In this document: piece by piece, positions 19,343-31,036 of the stretch
Numbering within the stretch: the stretch's first letter is position 1
Layout of the letters: each line of letters begins with the position of its first letter
Assembly: GCF_022095675.1 (NCBI RefSeq)
Contig: NZ_JAHYSG010000011.1
Span: 62,001 to 126,000 of the forward strand
DNA length: 64,000 nucleotides
Direction: 5' to 3'
Source: Dactylosporangium sp. AC04546
Lineage (GTDB): Bacteria > Actinomycetota > Actinomycetes > Mycobacteriales > Micromonosporaceae
The notes under the pieces: generated by a model
What the model was told of the DNA's origin: nothing
Database searches by the model: none
Seen by the model: only the letters and a program-made list of their open reading frames with translations
Program-made: the position numbers and the translations under genes

Positions 19343-19864
19343 GTGGATCGATATCGAGCACTGCTGATCGGGCCGACCGACGGCACCTGGCGGATCACCG
19401 TCCCCCACGCCGGCGAGGCGGTGGTCACCACACCCCGCCTGGCCGACTTCGAGGCACGCCGCCTGCTGGGCCTGTCCGCCGATCACGACGTGGAGCTGAT
19501 CGGCCCGGCCGGCACCCCGGTGTACGTCTTCGACATCCTGTTCACCGACGTCCGCGATCCCGCCCTGGACGTGCTGGCCTCGGACCCGCCGGCGGGCTGC
19601 TGGCTGGACCCGCCGGCCCTGCACTGCGCCCGCCCCGGCCTCAGCCGCCTGGCCGCGATCGCCGACCTGGCCGCGGAGCTGCGCATCGGCTACGGCCTGG
19701 AGGCAGGCGACCTGGGCTTCGAGCGCTTGTGGGAGTGGGCGGGCCCGCGCGAGTGGGGCGAGCGGATGGTCGCCCATCTGCTCCTGATGGCGGTGCAGCG
19801 GGCGCGCTGGCTGGGCCTGCCGGAGGAAGCCCTGACGTCCTTCGTGCACACGGCCATGCCGTAG
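19343..19864 (+). CDS. Hypothetical protein, no family recognised
   Basis: The GTG at 19343 is chosen because a TACCCT hexamer at 19331-19336 lies six bases upstream, the leaderless pattern common in this window. The 173-residue product (VDRYRALLIGPTDGTWRITV...) is mixed alpha/beta and rich in Asp, Leu and Pro, with two Cys, no signal peptide and no membrane segment. It contains IADLAAELRIGYGLE and WEWAGPREWGERM. The stop lies 12 bp before the first tRNA-like gene, whose putative -10 element (TAGGCT, 19862) overlaps the stop codon. No function can be assigned. Confidence 0.7.
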   Translation: MDRYRALLIGPTDGTWRITVPHAGEAVVTTPRLADFEARRLLGLSADHDVELIGPAGTPVYVFDILFTDVRDPALDVLASDPPAGCWLDPPALHCARPGLSRLAAIADLAAELRIGYGLEAGDLGFERLWEWAGPREWGERMVAHLLLMAVQRARWLGLPEEALTSFVHTAMP

Positions 19865-19876
19865 GCTCGGCGCCGC

Positions 19877-19953
19877 GGTAGGCCGTAGTGCAGAGGTCGT
19901 CACACCAGCTTGCGTAGATGGAAGACGCCGGTTCGAATCCGGTCGGCCTACCG
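19877..19953 (+). ncRNA. tRNA-like RNA gene A (9-bp acceptor-type stem, GCG in anticodon position)
   Basis: The element folds as a cloverleaf: acceptor-type stem GGTAGGCCG (19877-19885) with CGGCCTACC (19944-19952), nine perfect pairs. TA and a short D arm (GTG/CAC with CAGAGGTCGT loop) follow, then an anticodon-like arm CCAGC-TTGCGTA-GATGG with one G-A mismatch, then a 5-bp T arm with the canonical loop TTCGAAT. Standard tRNAs have a 7-bp acceptor stem. No CCA is encoded. TAGGCT lies nine bases upstream. It shares body, T arm and D arm with three elements near 29.5-30.6 kb and precedes the same type of ankyrin protein gene. Confidence 0.72.
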
Positions 19954-20028
19954 CCTTCCCTCCCTTCGTCCATCGCCTGCTTTCCGCCGTTCCCCTTCGC
20001 CCCCTCAATCCCCGGAGGTCGACGAGCC

Positions 20029-21687
20029 GTGCTCACCACGCTGCGCCGAGACATCCCGCAGTGGCGGCGGATCCGGGCCGAGGCCCTGCCACCGCACGTG
20101 GTGGAGGCGGCGGCCGCGGCCCGTTCGGCCGGCGACTGGCGGCGGGCGGCCGAACTGGCCCGCACCGAGGTGAGCATCGACCTCGAAGCCACCCGGCAGC
20201 GCTTCGGCGGCGTGGCGGCGGACGAGCTCGAGGACGACCTGCGCCACCTGTGCCTCGACCTGCTGTGGTGGCACCTCCCCCGGCACCGCGGCGGCATGAC
20301 CACTCTCCACCCCCGCGTGAGCGCGGTGCTGGCCCCGTCGGCGAACGCCGATGCCGGCCCTCTGCTGCGGGTACGCCTGCCGAAGTCCCCCGCCGGCCCC
20401 CAACGCCTGCGCCTCGACGTGACCACGTTCGGCGAGCTGGAGAGTGAGCGCTGGTACGTCGCGCCGCGGTACACCTGGGACGTCCGCGAAACACTGCGCC
20501 TCCGGTCGGCGTGGGGCGGCTCGCCGACCCGTCTTCCGCTGCTCACCCCCGACGGTCGCCCGCTCCCCCCAGACCAGCTCGGCGTCGGCGACGACGAGGC
20601 GTCCAGGACCGAGCGCGTCTACCTCCGGCTGGCCGCCGGCGACCTCGCGGCCGCCTGGGAGGAGTGCGGCTTCGACGTGACGGAGGTCGACCCGGAGGCG
20701 CTCCAGCAGGGCGGCGTGGGCCCGGCCTGCCCGATCGGCCTCGCGTCGGACGTCCGGGCGGCATCGAGGGTGTTCAACACGAGCCAGGTCAACACCCTGT
20801 ACGGCGCCCGCCTGGACATCGACATCCCCGACACTCCGTCACCGTGGCGCGAGCCCGCCTCCGGCACCTCGGACGCCGATCCGCCCGACTCGACCGCGGC
20901 GCACCCCGGTGCTCTCTCCGCCGTCGGGGCCGACCTGGGCGACTACCTGGAGATCCCGGTCCGGCTGGCCACGGACGGCGTGCCGGCCGACCTGATCCTG
21001 ATCGCCGCCGGCCACCGCACCCCGGGCGACCTGCACCCGCTGATGCGAGCGGCCCTGTTCCCGTCGGCCCCGGCCAACCCGCCCCGCACGCCACCACGCC
21101 CAGCCGCACCCCCGACGGCCCAGGTCCGCTGCCAGGGCACCTGGCACACCGTGACGATCGCCGACCGCAGGCTGCGGATGGAGCACCACACGGACGCGGA
21201 GGTGCAGCGCGAAGAGACCCTCCGCGCCCTGGGCGGCACAAGCACGGGCTGCTTCGCGGTCCAGCTGGCCTGGACGACGGGCACGGGCCGCCTGCCGCAC
21301 ACGTTCTCGGCAACGGTCCGCGAGGTACGCCACCGCATGCAACACGGCGACACCCCCTGGCTCCTGGAGGGCCTGCGGGAGGGCGTGATCGACCCGCTGA
21401 TGCGCGACTCCAACGGCTGGTCGCTGCTCCACATGGCGATGTGGGTCGACTTCCGCCAGGTGGTCCGGGGCCTGCTCCAGGACGGCGTACCAGTGGACGC
21501 GAGAGACAAGATCGGCCGCACCCCGTTGTACCTGGCGGCGATGAACGGCGGCCACCCGGACTTCATGCGCCTGCTGCTGGACTGCGGCGCCGACCCGAGG
21601 GCAGAGACGGAGTACGGCGCGTACCCGTCCTACATCGCCAAGCACCGCAACGACTGGCAGGACCTCGCCTTCCTGTCCCAACTCTGA
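20029..21687 (+). CDS. Ankyrin-type protein linked to tRNA-like genes
   Basis: The GTG at 20029 is chosen for GGAGG at 20014-20018. An earlier ATG at 19918 lies inside the tRNA-like RNA and is rejected. The 552-residue product has an N-terminal helical domain (ARSAGDWRRAAELARTEVSI, DDLRHLCLDLLWWHLPRH), a variable middle, a segment ending EETLRALGGTSTGC, and C-terminal ankyrin repeats (DSNGWSLLHMAMWVDFR, IGRTPLYLAAMNGGHPDF, LLLDCGADP). No signal peptide or catalytic motif is visible. Both conserved ends match the broken gene at 29677-30539, which is likewise flanked by tRNA-like genes. Ankyrin repeats suggest protein binding. The role is unknown. Confidence 0.8.
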   Translation: MLTTLRRDIPQWRRIRAEALPPHVVEAAAAARSAGDWRRAAELARTEVSIDLEATRQRFGGVAADELEDDLRHLCLDLLWWHLPRHRGGMTTLHPRVSAVLAPSANADAGPLLRVRLPKSPAGPQRLRLDVTTFGELESERWYVAPRYTWDVRETLRLRSAWGGSPTRLPLLTPDGRPLPPDQLGVGDDEASRTERVYLRLAAGDLAAAWEECGFDVTEVDPEALQQGGVGPACPIGLASDVRAASRVFNTSQVNTLYGARLDIDIPDTPSPWREPASGTSDADPPDSTAAHPGALSAVGADLGDYLEIPVRLATDGVPADLILIAAGHRTPGDLHPLMRAALFPSAPANPPRTPPRPAAPPTAQVRCQGTWHTVTIADRRLRMEHHTDAEVQREETLRALGGTSTGCFAVQLAWTTGTGRLPHTFSATVREVRHRMQHGDTPWLLEGLREGVIDPLMRDSNGWSLLHMAMWVDFRQVVRGLLQDGVPVDARDKIGRTPLYLAAMNGGHPDFMRLLLDCGADPRAETEYGAYPSYIAKHRNDWQDLAFLSQL

Positions 21688-28719: not shown

Positions 28720-29499
28720 ATGGAGCCTTACTTCGAGTCGCACGGTAGCGGCGGCGCACGGCCGCTCGTGCTGATCCACGGCGCGCTGTCCGGCATCGGC
28801 ACCTCGTTCGGCCAGATCCTGCCGGCCCTCGCCCGCACCCGGCGGGTGATCGCGGTGGAACTGCAGGCGCACGGCCGCACGCCCGACATCGACCGGCCGT
28901 TCACCATCGAGCACTTCGCGGACGACGTGGTCGAGCTGCTGGACCGGCTCGGCCTTGACCGCGCCGACGTCTTCGGCTGGAGCATGGGCGCGTCGGTCGG
29001 GCTGCGGCTCGGCACCGACCACCCGTCCCGTGTCGGCCGGCTGGTGCTGGCATCGGTGAGCTTCGACCTCGGCGGCGTGTACCCCGGGCTGCTGGAGGGC
29101 ATCCAGGACCTCCAGCCGGAGCACCTGCACGGTTCGGAGTTCCACGAGGAGTACCTCCGCACGGCCCCCGATCCCGCCGGCTGGGCGAACCTCGTCACCA
29201 AGATGAAGGTGCTCGACGCGAATCTCCCGAGCTGGACGGCCGCGCAGATCCGCGCGCTGGAGGCCCCGACGATGCTCGTGCTCGGCGACGCCGACATCGT
29301 CACGCCCGAGCACGCGGTGGAGATGTTCCGGCTCCTCGGCGGCGGCGTGCCCGGCGACCTGACCGGCCTGCCGGCCTGCCGCCTGGCCATCCTGCCCGGC
29401 ACCACCCACACGACGATCCCGCACCGCGCCGAGGTACTCGCCCCGATGATCGAGGAGTTCTTGGAGGAGCCCGTACTGTGTGCGCAGGCAGGGTCGTAG
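28720..29499 (+). CDS. Alpha/beta hydrolase
   Basis: The 259-residue protein has the oxyanion segment LVLIHGALSG, the nucleophile elbow GWSMGAS (Ser near 91), an acid in LVLGDADIVT and a catalytic His in LPGTTHTTI. It lacks a signal peptide. The family includes esterases, lactonases and C-C hydrolases, so the substrate cannot be told. The last codon and TAG stop lie inside tRNA-like gene B (29488-29566): the RNA's acceptor stem encodes the tail AGS and its TAG provides the stop. This is a rare coding/RNA overlap. Confidence 0.87.
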   Translation: MEPYFESHGSGGARPLVLIHGALSGIGTSFGQILPALARTRRVIAVELQAHGRTPDIDRPFTIEHFADDVVELLDRLGLDRADVFGWSMGASVGLRLGTDHPSRVGRLVLASVSFDLGGVYPGLLEGIQDLQPEHLHGSEFHEEYLRTAPDPAGWANLVTKMKVLDANLPSWTAAQIRALEAPTMLVLGDADIVTPEHAVEMFRLLGGGVPGDLTGLPACRLAILPGTTHTTIPHRAEVLAPMIEEFLEEPVLCAQAGS

Positions 29500-29566
29500 C
29501 GCAGAGGTCGTCGCGCCCGGACTCATATTCCGGGAGGACGCCGGTTCGACTCCGGTCGGCCCTGCC
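29488..29566 (+). ncRNA. tRNA-like RNA gene B (9-bp acceptor-type stem, CAT in anticodon position)
   Basis: Acceptor-type stem GCAGGGTCG (29488-29496) pairs with CGGCCCTGC (29557-29565) over nine positions including one G-T. TA and a D arm follow, then an anticodon arm CCGGA-CTCATAT-TCCGG (five pairs, 7-base loop with T33 and CAT), then a T arm GCCGG-TTCGACT-CCGGT. No CCA is encoded. TACTGT at 29474-29479 lies eight bases before the 5' end. Despite the Met/Ile-type anticodon, the body is nearly identical to elements C and D, which carry other anticodons. It overlaps the end of the hydrolase gene. Confidence 0.78.
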
Positions 29567-29584
29567 CCCGTACTGTGTGTGATG

Positions 29585-29660
29585 GCAGGGCCGTAGCGCA
29601 GAGGTCGACGCGCCGGACTCCAATCCGGGGGACGCCGGTTCGATTCCGGCCGGCCCTGCC
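29585..29660 (+). ncRNA. tRNA-like RNA gene C (9-bp acceptor-type stem, CCA in anticodon position)
   Basis: GCAGGGCCG (29585-29593) pairs perfectly with CGGCCCTGC (29651-29659). The D arm is as in element B. The anticodon arm is CCGGA-CTCCAA-TCCGG with only six loop bases, as if one A had been lost from a Trp-like CTCCAAA loop. The T arm GCCGG-TTCGATT-CCGGC is canonical. TACTGT at 29571-29576 lies eight bases upstream, the same spacing as B. The gap between B and C is only 18 bp. The six-base loop would impair decoding, which argues against a normal role in translation. Confidence 0.76.
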
Positions 29661-29676
29661 CCCGTATCCTCGTCGG

Positions 29677-30539
29677 GTGGTGCCCGCCTGGATGGTCGAG
29701 CACGCGACGTCGCGCCGCCTGGCGGGAGACTGGCGCGGCGCGTGCACCGCGGCGTTCGTCAACGCGCAGATCGACCTCGCCGACATCGCCCGCCGCGATG
29801 GTGTCGAAATGGCGTCGGCGGTCGAGAACGAGCTGCGCCACCTGGTCCCCGACCTGCTGCGCTGGCACCTGCCACGGCGCCCGGACGGTTTGTTCCGGGC
29901 GGCCCTGTACTTCCCGCTGGCGATGTTCGGCGACCGGCAGGCCCTGATCGCCTCCGTTCGGTCGTGCCCGTCCACTGCGACCACGCCACCCACGAGGTGG
30001 TGATGCGCGACGGCACGCTCGCCCTGCCCCACTCCGCGACCGAGATCGACCGCGAGCGCATGCTCCGTGCCCTGGGCGGCCAGGTCCAGGGCTGCGTGGC
30101 GGCGTACGACGGCTGGCGCGACCCGACGGTCCGCATGCCGAGCCCGATGCGCACCCTGCGGGGGTCGGTGCTCGCCCTGGTCCACCACGGCGACGGCCCC
30201 GCGCTGGCCGCGGCCCTGGACCAGGGCCTCGACCCGCACCTGCGCGACGAACGCGGCCGCACCCTGCTGCATCTGCTCCCGTGGCTGACCGGCGCCGACC
30301 TGCTGTCGCGCCTGCTGGCGACGGGCCTGCCGGTCGACGTACGCGACCTGGAGGGCGAAACGCCCCTCCGCTCGGCCGTGGTGCACGGCACCCCGGACCT
30401 GGTCCGCGCCCTGCTCGCCGCGGGCGCCGACCCCAACGCCCGCTCCACCGGTCGCTGGCCCAGCATCGCGCGGTCGACGGCCCGCCCGGACCTGGCGTTC
30501 CTGCGGCATTCTCTAGAATTCGAACCGGCAGGGCCGTAG
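29677..30539 (+). pseudogene. Broken homologue of the ankyrin-type protein at 20029
   Basis: A TATCCT hexamer (29665-29670) six bases before GTG 29677 suggests a leaderless start. The first frame encodes RRLAGDWRGACTAAFVNAQI and ENELRHLVPDLLRWHLPRR, matching the helical domain of the 20029 product, and ends at 30003. The homologous remainder (ERMLRALGGQVQGC, RTLLHLLPWL, EGETPLRSAVVHGTPDL, LLAAGADPNAR) continues in the -1 frame from about 29950. A one-base shift therefore separates the halves. The long middle region of the full-length relative is absent. The stop TAG lies in tRNA-like D. Mutation, sequencing error or programmed shift are all possible, and no slippery site is evident. Confidence 0.75.
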
Positions 30540-30604
30540 CGCAGAGGTAGTCGCACCGTCTTTGCAGGACAGGGGACGCCGGTTCGACTCCGGCCGGCCC
30601 TGCC
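30528..30604 (+). ncRNA. tRNA-like RNA gene D (9-bp acceptor-type stem, TGC in anticodon position)
   Basis: GCAGGGCCG (30528-30536) pairs perfectly with CGGCCCTGC (30595-30603). The D arm is GCG/CGC. The anticodon-like arm CCGTC-TTTGCAG-GACAGG has one bulged A and a 7-base loop with T33 and TGC. The T arm GCCGG-TTCGACT-CCGGC is canonical. TAGAAT at 30514-30519 lies eight bases upstream. The 5' arm doubles as the last codons and stop of the broken ankyrin gene. The body is the same as B and C although the anticodon is Ala-type, and the G3-U70 pair that marks genuine tRNA-Ala is absent (A3-T70 here). Confidence 0.76.
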
Positions 30605-30631: not shown

Positions 30632-31036
30632 TCAGGCCGCCAGGTACTGGTTGGCGCGGTCGAGGATCGTGCTCAGGACGCGTCCGGTCACGTCGAGGTC
30701 GGCCGGCGGCAGGTCGCCCCACAGCCGCTCGGTGATCGGCCCGATCGCGGCGCGAACCTCGGTCCACTGGGCCCGGCCGGCCTCGGTGACGGTCGCGGCG
30801 CCTTCGGCGTCGAGCCGCACCAGGCCGGCGTCCGCCAGCTCGGCGAGCCGCTGCCGGGCCGTATCCCCGTCGACCTTGAGCGCCCCGGCGATCTTGTCGG
30901 CATCGCCGCCCATGACGGTCAGGGTCAGCGCCACCCACTGCGGCTCGGTGATGTTCCGCCCGGCGAGCAGCCGATCGAGGATCGCGTTGAGGGCCTTCTC
31001 GGTCTGCCCGATGACGGCGGTGGTGAAGGTGGTCAT
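30632..31036 (-). CDS. Small winged-helix-like protein, probably MarR-regulated
   Basis: The 134-residue protein reads like a MarR-type fold: TEPQWVALTLTVM, DTARQRLAELADAGLVRLDA, ATVTEAGRAQWTEV and a final helix. The recognition region is diverged, so DNA binding is uncertain. AAGGGG precedes the ATG. It is transcribed divergently from a clear MarR gene, and the 83-bp gap holds two identical palindromes. That suggests it is the target of that regulator, as in MarR/YusO-type pairs. No effector function is evident. Confidence 0.68.
   Translation of the reverse strand: MTTFTTAVIGQTEKALNAILDRLLAGRNITEPQWVALTLTVMGGDADKIAGALKVDGDTARQRLAELADAGLVRLDAEGAATVTEAGRAQWTEVRAAIGPITERLWGDLPPADLDVTGRVLSTILDRANQYLAA

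Follow-up and report, generated by a model that had tools for sequence, protein, structure and literature searches.

A large family of tRNA-shaped RNAs whose acceptor stem is over-long is widespread in actinobacteria; it is represented here by 282 distinct copies from 186 loci and the source genome. At the level of sequence, comparison of these copies establishes a fold with compensatory changes, a promoter position, leader geometry and coupling to a recurrent set of genes. Most gene-linked copies are, at roughly even odds (about 0.5), non-decoding tRNA mimics that form the 5' ends of ankyrin, SDR-like or LRR mRNAs and gate the message.

Elements of the window

The window is the whole 64,000-nucleotide stretch of DNA that was analyzed. 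It contains four members of the family, named A to D. Each is found by ARAGORN at the position given in the initial annotation and scores 42-54 bits with the Rfam model RF00005, for which the cut-off is 29 bits. The features are as follows.

19862..19867, + strand: TAGGCT, -10-like box of element A, separated from the stem base by 7 nt, called from sequence and from the family-wide box and spacing
19875..19954, + strand: tRNA-like element A with core 19879-19950, a terminal helix of 11 bp and GCG at the anticodon position
20029..21687, + strand: ankyrin-family gene with a GTG start codon preceded by GGAGGT, 78 nt past the core of A
29474..29479, + strand: TACTGT, -10-like box of element B, separated from the stem by 7 nt, called from sequence and family-wide spacing
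29487..29566, + strand: tRNA-like element B with core 29490-29563, a terminal helix of 10 bp and loop CTCATAT on a 6-bp anticodon stem
29571..29576, + strand: TACTGT, -10-like box of element C, separated from the stem by 7 nt, called in the same way
29584..29660, + strand: tRNA-like element C with core 29587-29657, a terminal helix of 10 bp and the 6-base anticodon loop CTCCAA
29671..30509, + strand: broken ankyrin-family gene in two reading frames with the middle part missing, directly 3' of element C
30514..30519, + strand: TAGAAT, -10-like box of element D, separated from the stem by 7 nt, called in the same way
30527..30604, + strand: tRNA-like element D with core 30530-30601, a terminal helix of 10 bp and TGC at the anticodon position

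The D and T arms are common to all four elements, as had been claimed. The anticodon positions reported earlier were confirmed by eye on the sequence: GCG in A, CAT in B, CCA within the 6-base loop of C, and TGC in D. ARAGORN assigns no anticodon to C. The nine-pair terminal stem of the initial annotation proved too short. Counted outward from the standard seven pairs, there are three more in B, C and D and four more in A. Odd anticodon arms had also been described; the 6-base loop of C stands, but B can be read with a 6-bp stem and a normal 7-base loop. Minimum-energy folds of the four single sequences contain the long helix and lack the full cloverleaf.

Element A is presumed to be the leader of the ankyrin-family gene at 20029..21687. 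The next feature 3' of B is element C, and D has no partner gene 3' of it on its own strand. The -10 boxes and the adjoining ankyrin genes of the window are absent from the initial annotation.

Size and distribution of the family

The count of 282 excludes matches below 64 bits, cores containing N, copies identical in both flank and core, and copies with less than 60 nt upstream. After these exclusions, the two locus sets comprise 99 of 100 loci and 87 of 118. The first set is made up of the clusters of the best 150 model matches, minus those from the source genome, and thus samples the best-scoring copies. The pattern scan gave at least 118 stretches, with organism names for 80 of the 118. 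Three of the 118 were not matched by the model and were taken as chance: L234 (Rhodococcus hoagii), L260 (a Chloroflexota MAG) and L288 (a Bacteroidetes MAG). Two exact pattern matches on viral contigs were likewise not matched by the model.

A model search places the family in about 84 of 300 genomes of the host bacterial family, an approximate figure because the best ordinary tRNAs come near the E-value threshold. Tandem copies number up to six (L320). Beyond the window, the source genome has four more strong copies and one degraded copy on contig C12 (38.9 bits). The initial annotation recognized no described family, and a literature search, with subscription papers mostly outside its scope, found neither this RNA nor its gene coupling.

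Extended acceptor helix

The earlier proposal was staked on compensatory changes in the stem, and two-sided changes are found in 11 of 11 pairs. The covariation set consists of 56 copies hand-picked from the 282. In this set, 94.2% of long-helix cells pair, versus 28-49% in slid controls. Two-sided changes occur at every pair in both the long helix and the anticodon stem, and all 500 shuffles and all slid controls gave lower values.

Across 250 distinct cores, standard pairs are present at -1:73 in 233, at -2:74 in 224 and at -3:75 in 198; the search model has no columns for these outer pairs. At least two pairs beyond the 7-bp acceptor are seen in 214 of the 250 cores and in none of the 72 ordinary tRNAs of the source genome. 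Seven of the eight family members in that genome have at least three extra pairs, and the eighth has one. This flank-aware comparison covered 80 of the 82 RF00005 matches of the source genome, leaving out two on contig C126.

A fixed 9/5 build does not hold. The helix is mostly 9-12 bp, and its outer end tracks the predicted transcription start. What stands is that these tRNA-like RNAs form a family of their own, whose extended acceptor helix matches none of the types 8/5, 9/4, 8/4 and 9/3. The cloverleaf positions T8, A14, G15 and C48 are kept, as are the elbow and the T arm. At the elbow, G18 occurs with T55 in 219 cores and A18 with G55 in 20, while A18 with T55 is never seen; this switch may be a single event because related sequences are not independent.

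Predicted promoter

A TANNNT box lies within 20 nt upstream of 233 of the 241 copies that have no other copy just upstream. The same box is found in 4 of 241 control windows and in 13 of 241 after shuffling. Of the 41 second tandem copies, 26 have no -10 box over the same 20 nt. A spacing of exactly 7 nt between box and stem base is seen in 109 of 233 copies (permutation mean 49, maximum 79), and another spacing in 124. No clear -35 box appears in base counts upstream of the -10 box. Pairing is 85-95% at the first five positions inside the predicted stem base and 31-56% at the first ten outside it. This sharp loss of pairing at the predicted transcription start suggests that the first bases of the transcript are also the start of the helix.

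Coupling to ankyrin, SDR-like and LRR genes

Three types of partner lie 3' of many copies: ankyrin genes, Zn-ribbon SDR-like genes and RI-type LRR genes. A partner domain is encoded on the same strand within 1500 nt downstream at 78 of 99 and 48 of 87 loci of the two sets. No partner domain lies on the opposite strand within 1500 nt at any of the 99 and 87 loci. The loci lacking a same-strand partner number 21 of 99 and 39 of 87, and 10 of these 39 have less than 600 nt of sequence there. Gene order at the copies is conserved across several genera. The initial annotation missed both the promoter position and this coupling.

The predicted start codon lies a median of 30 nt past the core and within 45 nt in 99 of 141 linked copies, and 109 of the 141 have a Shine-Dalgarno-like motif of at least four letters; both counts are favored because starts were picked in frame by the best such motif. 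With a start codon about 30 nt past the core, there is little room for a second promoter. The order of promoter, element and start codon on one strand is found for the 141 linked copies and not for orphans such as D.

The reverse search found the element at 12 of 13 LRR loci, L353 being the one without. It left out L345, a 109-residue LRR fragment at a second place of genome G683, which also lacks the element. Exceptions to the usual order occur at L141 (putative D. sucinum) and on contig C21 of the source genome, where the element is 3' of an ankyrin gene. Four further ankyrin-family places of the source genome (C41, C33, C123 and C57), some of them fragmentary, have no element.

When the partner proteins were searched with Pfam, NCBIfam and PADLOC, the matches were to repeats and SDR, along with weak ones driven by the repeats. 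For the six proteins run through PADLOC, only weak matches in the ankyrin part were returned (best 29 bits). The model of the window ankyrin protein has a mean pLDDT of 89.2, and the 50 fold matches listed for each program are ankyrin-repeat ones, a search that bears mainly on the part beyond the N-terminal 350 residues. The SDR protein model has a mean pLDDT of 78.4. The SDR fold of this gene set is without the usual catalytic Tyr. Near LRR-ANK genes, AAA (MoxR-like) genes are found at 8 loci and VWA-like DUF2201 genes at 9, counts made on stretches many of which end too early to show such genes; these calls come from Pfam run on one protein per group.

Anticodon arm

The arms had been called interchangeable. 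They do vary against constant D and T arms, but arm types partly follow the downstream gene. T is present at position 33 in 105 of 182 standard-length arms, versus 43 of 45 ordinary tRNAs. At least one mismatch occurs in 67 of the 182. The arm has another length in 73 of 255 parsed cores (3 of 258 were left unparsed). As a whole, the family does not keep the U33 within a 7-base loop, or the 7-bp acceptor with unpaired discriminator and 3' tail, of a decoding tRNA.

Comparison with known RNAs and systems

The family shares with canonical tRNA (RF00005) the D and T arms, the elbow contacts, a mostly 5-bp anticodon stem, a 5-nt variable loop and scores above the cut-off. It differs in its longer acceptor helix that ends with the predicted transcription start, in a position 33 that is not kept, in a hypervariable anticodon arm and in its site just before protein genes.

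The tRNA shape is reused outside decoding in YrlA (a bacterial Y RNA), tmRNA and viral tRNA-like structures. In these RNAs, the tRNA-like module lies inside longer RNAs or at 3' ends, whereas the mimic described here would be the 5' end of an mRNA.

tRNA-Sec has acceptor/T types of 8/5 in bacteria and 9/4 in archaea and eukaryotes, and allo-tRNAs are described as 8/4 (all three in PMC7609411) or 9/3 (PMC7590224). As described there, these RNAs also have a lengthened acceptor helix. In contrast, the family keeps a 5-bp T stem, grows its helix outward, mostly by 2-5 pairs, and has a short variable loop. Identity with either was rejected, as it needs a 12-13-bp acceptor plus T stack and a long variable arm; window copies have stacks of 15-16 bp (10 or 11 plus 5) and a 5-nt variable loop.

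The Bacillus cereus pseudo-tRNA tRNA-Other is a tRNA-like RNA outside translation that affects expression, according to PMC3399842. In the family described here, a tRNA-like fold and promoter boxes are observed, transcription being predicted. tRNA-Other is, in that source, a single RNA from another phylum, and the likeness is one of description, not of sequence or neighbors. MoxR-vWA-centred conflict systems are a possible parallel to the 8 and 9 loci with MoxR-like and VWA-like DUF2201 genes; the main text of PMC7159879 contains neither "ankyrin" nor "leucine-rich", and has "LRR" and "tRNA" once each.

Alternative explanations

A stand-alone, trans-acting tRNA-like small RNA, released by cutting or by termination, could act as partner to the ankyrin, SDR-like and LRR proteins or as their target, kept close by co-inheritance; this is less probable than a leader. 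It would account for the 83 of 282 elements with no partner in the 1500 nt downstream (in some cases for want of sequence), 20 of which have in common a CTCCAAA loop on a 6-bp stem. It also fits the tandem arrays of up to six copies, and putative D. sucinum (L130/L285), where a single B-like copy sits by the same neighboring gene with no partner gene. The leader is preferred because it better explains the strict same-strand order and the spacing of about 30 nt to the start codon.

Decoding tRNAs of unusual build, as new isoacceptors or suppressors, would explain the conserved cloverleaf with T8, A14, G15, C48, elbow and T arm, and some loops, such as CTCCAAA, are ordinary. The helix of mostly 9-12 bp, the loss of T33 and the mismatched or irregular arms make this very unlikely, in agreement with the initial annotation. 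Moreover, the family is patchy among host-family genomes, and ordinary tRNAs of the source genome serve the same anticodons (e.g., Trp CCA, Ala TGC and Met CAT). The missing CCA, earlier counted against decoding, is uninformative and was dropped, since most ordinary tRNAs lack it as well: 10 of 72 encode CCA in the source genome, and 53 of 65 in S. coelicolor do not, by the count in PMC4681348. Decay into tRNA pseudogenes, or att-site remnants of mobile islands, is slightly less probable still. The window does hold an ankyrin gene remnant flanked by copies, the stretch from C to D resembles an insertion relative to putative D. sucinum (L130), and the C12 copy is degraded. The copies are nevertheless full-length rather than 3' fragments, and compensatory change throughout, conserved promoters and gene order kept over several genera point to maintenance. 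Least probable is that shared ancestry alone, the recent spread of one repeat, mimics function. The sequences are related and their D and T arms nearly identical, but the two-sided changes in all long-helix and anticodon-stem pairs exceed every control, and the pairing edge at the predicted start is sharp.

Proposed leader model and implications

In the leader model, sigma-70-type promoters of their own would drive non-decoding tRNA mimics. Transcription would start at the bottom of the over-long acceptor helix, so that the RNA begins with a folded tRNA shape. For most gene-linked copies, the transcript would continue about 30 nt to the start codon of the ankyrin, SDR-like or LRR gene. A factor that recognizes tRNA may bind the elbow and the variable anticodon arm; candidates are RNase P, tRNase Z, an enzyme that modifies tRNAs or cleaves anticodons, and the products of the linked genes. 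Such binding could gate the message at the level of its stability, processing or translation. The extended helix would probably hinder ordinary 5' and 3' tRNA maturation. Orphan copies may be trans-acting versions.

A more speculative and rather doubtful extension is that the 5'-end mimic is bait for tRNA-cutting or tRNA-modifying enzymes, e.g., anticodon nucleases of phages or rivals, and switches on an SDR-LRR-ankyrin(-MoxR-VWA) defense or repair operon. The variable anticodon arms would determine what is sensed, the operon would be switched on when the bait is damaged or bound, and orphan copies would be spare baits. If true, this would be a new kind of RNA-sensing gene control.

The family is easy to overlook because tRNA finders class these RNAs as odd tRNAs, and actinobacterial tRNA counts may include non-decoding copies. 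If the elements are leaders, bacterial mRNAs would carry a tRNA mimic as their 5' end, one linked to a conserved, uncharacterized gene set. Whether this set of SDR-like, RI-type LRR and ankyrin genes, with MoxR and VWA genes at some loci, is a defense or quality-control system would then become an addressable question.

Elements of the Window

The four tRNA-like elements that the initial annotation had placed in the window (A-D) are each detected at those positions by ARAGORN and Rfam. The 9-bp terminal stem that it had described is indeed over-long, but the helix measures 11 bp in A and 10 bp in B, C, and D. This corresponds to four (A) or three (B, C, and D, each) further pairs outward of the standard 7-bp acceptor stem. 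A -10-like box, read from the sequence, ends 7 nt upstream of every stem.

Elements A-D, their -10-like boxes, and adjacent ankyrin genes
19875..19954, + strand: element A; box TAGGCT
20029-21687, downstream of A: ankyrin gene
29487..29566, + strand: element B; box TACTGT
29584..29660, + strand: element C; box TACTGT
29671-30509, downstream of tandem B and C: broken ankyrin gene in two frames
30527..30604, + strand: element D; box TAGAAT

Element A is presumed to be the leader of the ankyrin gene at 20029-21687. B and C form a tandem pair, each with its own box, upstream of the broken ankyrin gene. D lies 3' of that gene and is followed by no partner gene. D. sucinum (L130) retains the pair of A and its ankyrin gene and has a single B-like element, which adjoins a relative of window gene 30632-31036. 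By this comparison, C, the broken gene, and D would seem to have been added locally at a later time. Minus-strand ORFs cross the elements at 29300-30556, with would-be GRAGRNRTGV- or PTGVEPAS-type peptides, and are likely spurious annotation arising from tRNA-like DNA.

The window genome (13.0 Mb, 348 contigs, estimated contamination of 11.5%) carries four further strong copies outside the window, on contigs C21 (one), C4 (one), and C98 (two). A degraded copy (G000:C12:94689-94764:-, L359; 38.9 bits) lies immediately 5' of an ankyrin-family gene. In the 80 of 82 tRNA matches examined in this genome, at least three extra pairs are present in 7 of the 8 family members, and the 72 other tRNAs have none (52) or one (20), never two or more. 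In addition to the normal tRNA set, divergent tRNA genes form two clusters of 11 (G000:C71:4265-5282 and G000:C53:35839-36896; L009, L010), possibly tRNA arrays of mobile elements or else contamination.

Distribution of the Family

Seven cores of the window genome, a core being the standard tRNA-shaped part, went into a covariance model. The model has no outer-stem columns, so outer pairing in its matches is not forced. In the window genome, the eight family members score 80-95 bits and the remaining tRNAs at most 65 bits. Run over actinobacterial genomes, as the initial annotation had proposed, the search returned a widespread family. Among the matches listed, scores of at least 73 bits occur in 5 of 150 genomes sampled from the order. 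Within the host's family, ~84 of 300 genomes have a match at E <=1e-13, covering 18 of 44 genera. Scanning genome records for an exact pattern yielded at least 118 stretches, and 115 of the 118 listed have a model match of at least 64 bits. Names among the 80 named stretches include Micromonospora, Catellatospora, Actinoplanes, Dactylosporangium, Hamadaea, Virgisporangium, Catenuloplanes, Streptomyces, Actinomadura, Actinoallomurus, Nocardiopsis, Kibdelosporangium, Rhodococcus rhodnii, Fodinicola, Herbidospora, and Acrocarpospora.

Conserved Fold

Pairs were counted in 250 distinct cores, all from outside the window genome; these and all other counts are inflated by relatedness, and shuffles, slid partners, and permutations served as controls. 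Standard outer pairs of several types are found at -1:73 in 233 cores, -2:74 in 224, -3:75 in 198, and -4:76 in 137. At least two consecutive extra pairs are present in 214 cores and at least three in 179. In an alignment of 56 copies hand-picked for diversity from 282, 94.2% of the cells pair. The initial annotation would have abandoned the family had compensatory change been lacking in the stem; two-sided changes occur at all 11 long-helix pairs, and at all 5 anticodon-stem pairs, of these 56 copies. Neither 500 shuffles nor any slid control matched the observed values. Folded as single sequences, A-D recover the long helix and not the whole cloverleaf.

The tRNA elbow is conserved. Positions 18 and 55 are G18 and T55 in 219 of the 250 cores, A18 and G55 in 20, other kinds in 11, and A18 and T55 in none; the scan pattern permitted A or G at position 18 and did not include the T loop. 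The 18-55 switch could go back to one event on the tree. The part that varies is the anticodon arm, which is 17 nt long in 182 copies and of other lengths in 73. The 182 arms of 17 nt carry 23 different triplets, and T33 is present in 105 of them versus 43 of 45 ordinary tRNAs.

Predicted Promoter and Start Site

For 241 copies without another copy directly upstream, a TANNNT box lies within 20 nt upstream in 233, compared with 4 in a control window shifted 40 nt upstream and 13 with shuffled letters. The number of extra pairs correlates with box position (Spearman 0.42, n=233), and the distance from box to stem base is exactly 7 nt in 109 of 233 (permutation mean 49, maximum 79). Across the predicted stem edge, pairing falls from 85-95% in the adjacent five positions within the stem to 31-56% in the adjacent ten beyond it. 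A close box precedes 14 of 72 ordinary tRNAs of the window genome, whose short leaders are mostly unpaired (16 of 59 positions paired). The helix is therefore predicted to begin, most likely, with the first nucleotide of the transcript or close to it.

Partner Genes

Three kinds of protein are encoded beside the elements. The first is an ankyrin protein (ANK; alignment A5) whose N-terminal part, >350 residues long, is conserved and non-repeat. The second is an SDR-fold protein (SDR; alignment A6, e.g., L297:5112-6359) with an N-terminal CxxC...CxxC ribbon of four Cys and an invariant Thr and Lys. The SDR motif at these positions is YxxxK, with a catalytic Tyr, so this partner has Thr in its place. 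The third is a leucine-rich-repeat protein (LRR; alignment A7), matched by Pfam LRR_6, which we take to be RI-type. Loci of Micromonosporaceae commonly show element(s)-ANK-element-SDR-LRR-ANK in full or in part, and those of Streptomyces element-LRR-ANK. At many loci the LRR reading frame abuts or overlaps that of ANK.

Of the 99 loci from the model search of the host's family (family sample), 78 have a partner that starts on the same strand no more than 1500 nt downstream, as do 48 of the 87 from the pattern scan (pattern sample); none of these 99 and 87 loci has an opposite-strand partner within 1500 nt. From the core to the predicted start codon, the median distance is 30 nt (<=45 nt in 99 of 141). 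A Shine-Dalgarno-like motif precedes this codon in 109 of 141, and both figures are favored by picking in-frame start codons by the best such motif. A reverse search for the LRR protein in 296 genomes of the class found it in 13 apart from the window genome, and 12 of their 13 LRR loci have an element. Each of the six element places of the window genome (two on C11, whose positions 62001-126000 are the window, and one each on C21, C98, C4, and C12) adjoins an ankyrin-family gene, which on C98 is preceded by SDR and LRR.

Other genes are found nearby. An AAA (AAA_5/MoxR-like) gene lies near LRR-ANK at 8 loci (L222, L235, L253, L266, L271, L278, L324, L328) and a DUF2201 VWA-like gene at 9 (L164, L192, L199, L206, L213, L222, L232, L253, L322), both assigned by Pfam on one protein per group. 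The operon may extend into this MoxR-VWA chaperone pair. Also recurring near elements, at 16 loci (e.g., L113:7036-8100, L163, L165, and L195), is a group of proteins in which Pfam, run on one, finds FHA and ABC-transporter domains.

Possible Function

The geometry of a promoter, a stem at the start site, and a start codon soon after favors the element as a 5'-terminal tRNA-mimic leader of the downstream mRNA, a reading given a probability of about one half. During tRNA maturation, RNase P recognizes the 3' end, tRNase Z cleaves, and CCA is added. An outer helix pairing positions 73-76 should hinder all three steps, and for this reason the mimic would remain attached to the message. That the elbow is conserved while the anticodon arm varies suggests that its reader would be an enzyme that binds tRNA, or the products of the genes themselves.

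Several arrangements argue against a pure leader. The element is 3' of the ankyrin gene on C21 and in L141, 26 of 41 second tandem copies have no box, and the LRR locus L353 and four ankyrin-family places of the window genome have no element. No same-strand partner lies in the 1500 nt downstream at 21 of 99 family-sample and 39 of 87 pattern-sample loci, 10 of the 39 having <600 nt of sequence downstream. Orphans make up 83 of the 282 copies, mostly in the pattern sample, and 20 of the 83 share a CTCCAAA (Trp-like) loop on a 6-bp anticodon stem, possibly a separate subfamily. These orphans make a role in trans possible and hold confidence in the leader at one half.

Published reports describe natural long acceptor stems of types 8/5, 9/4, and 8/4 (PMC7609411) and 9/3 (PMC7590224), a non-translating tRNA-like RNA of Bacillus cereus that affects expression (PMC3399842), and an SDR protein that aids human mitochondrial tRNA 3' processing (PMC11996679), with no kinship to the SDR partner implied. 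Literature searches found no published description of the element family or its gene coupling. The shape is of a known kind. What is new, as far as tested, is the link of the over-long helix to the start site, together with a leader position before the ANK, SDR, and LRR set.
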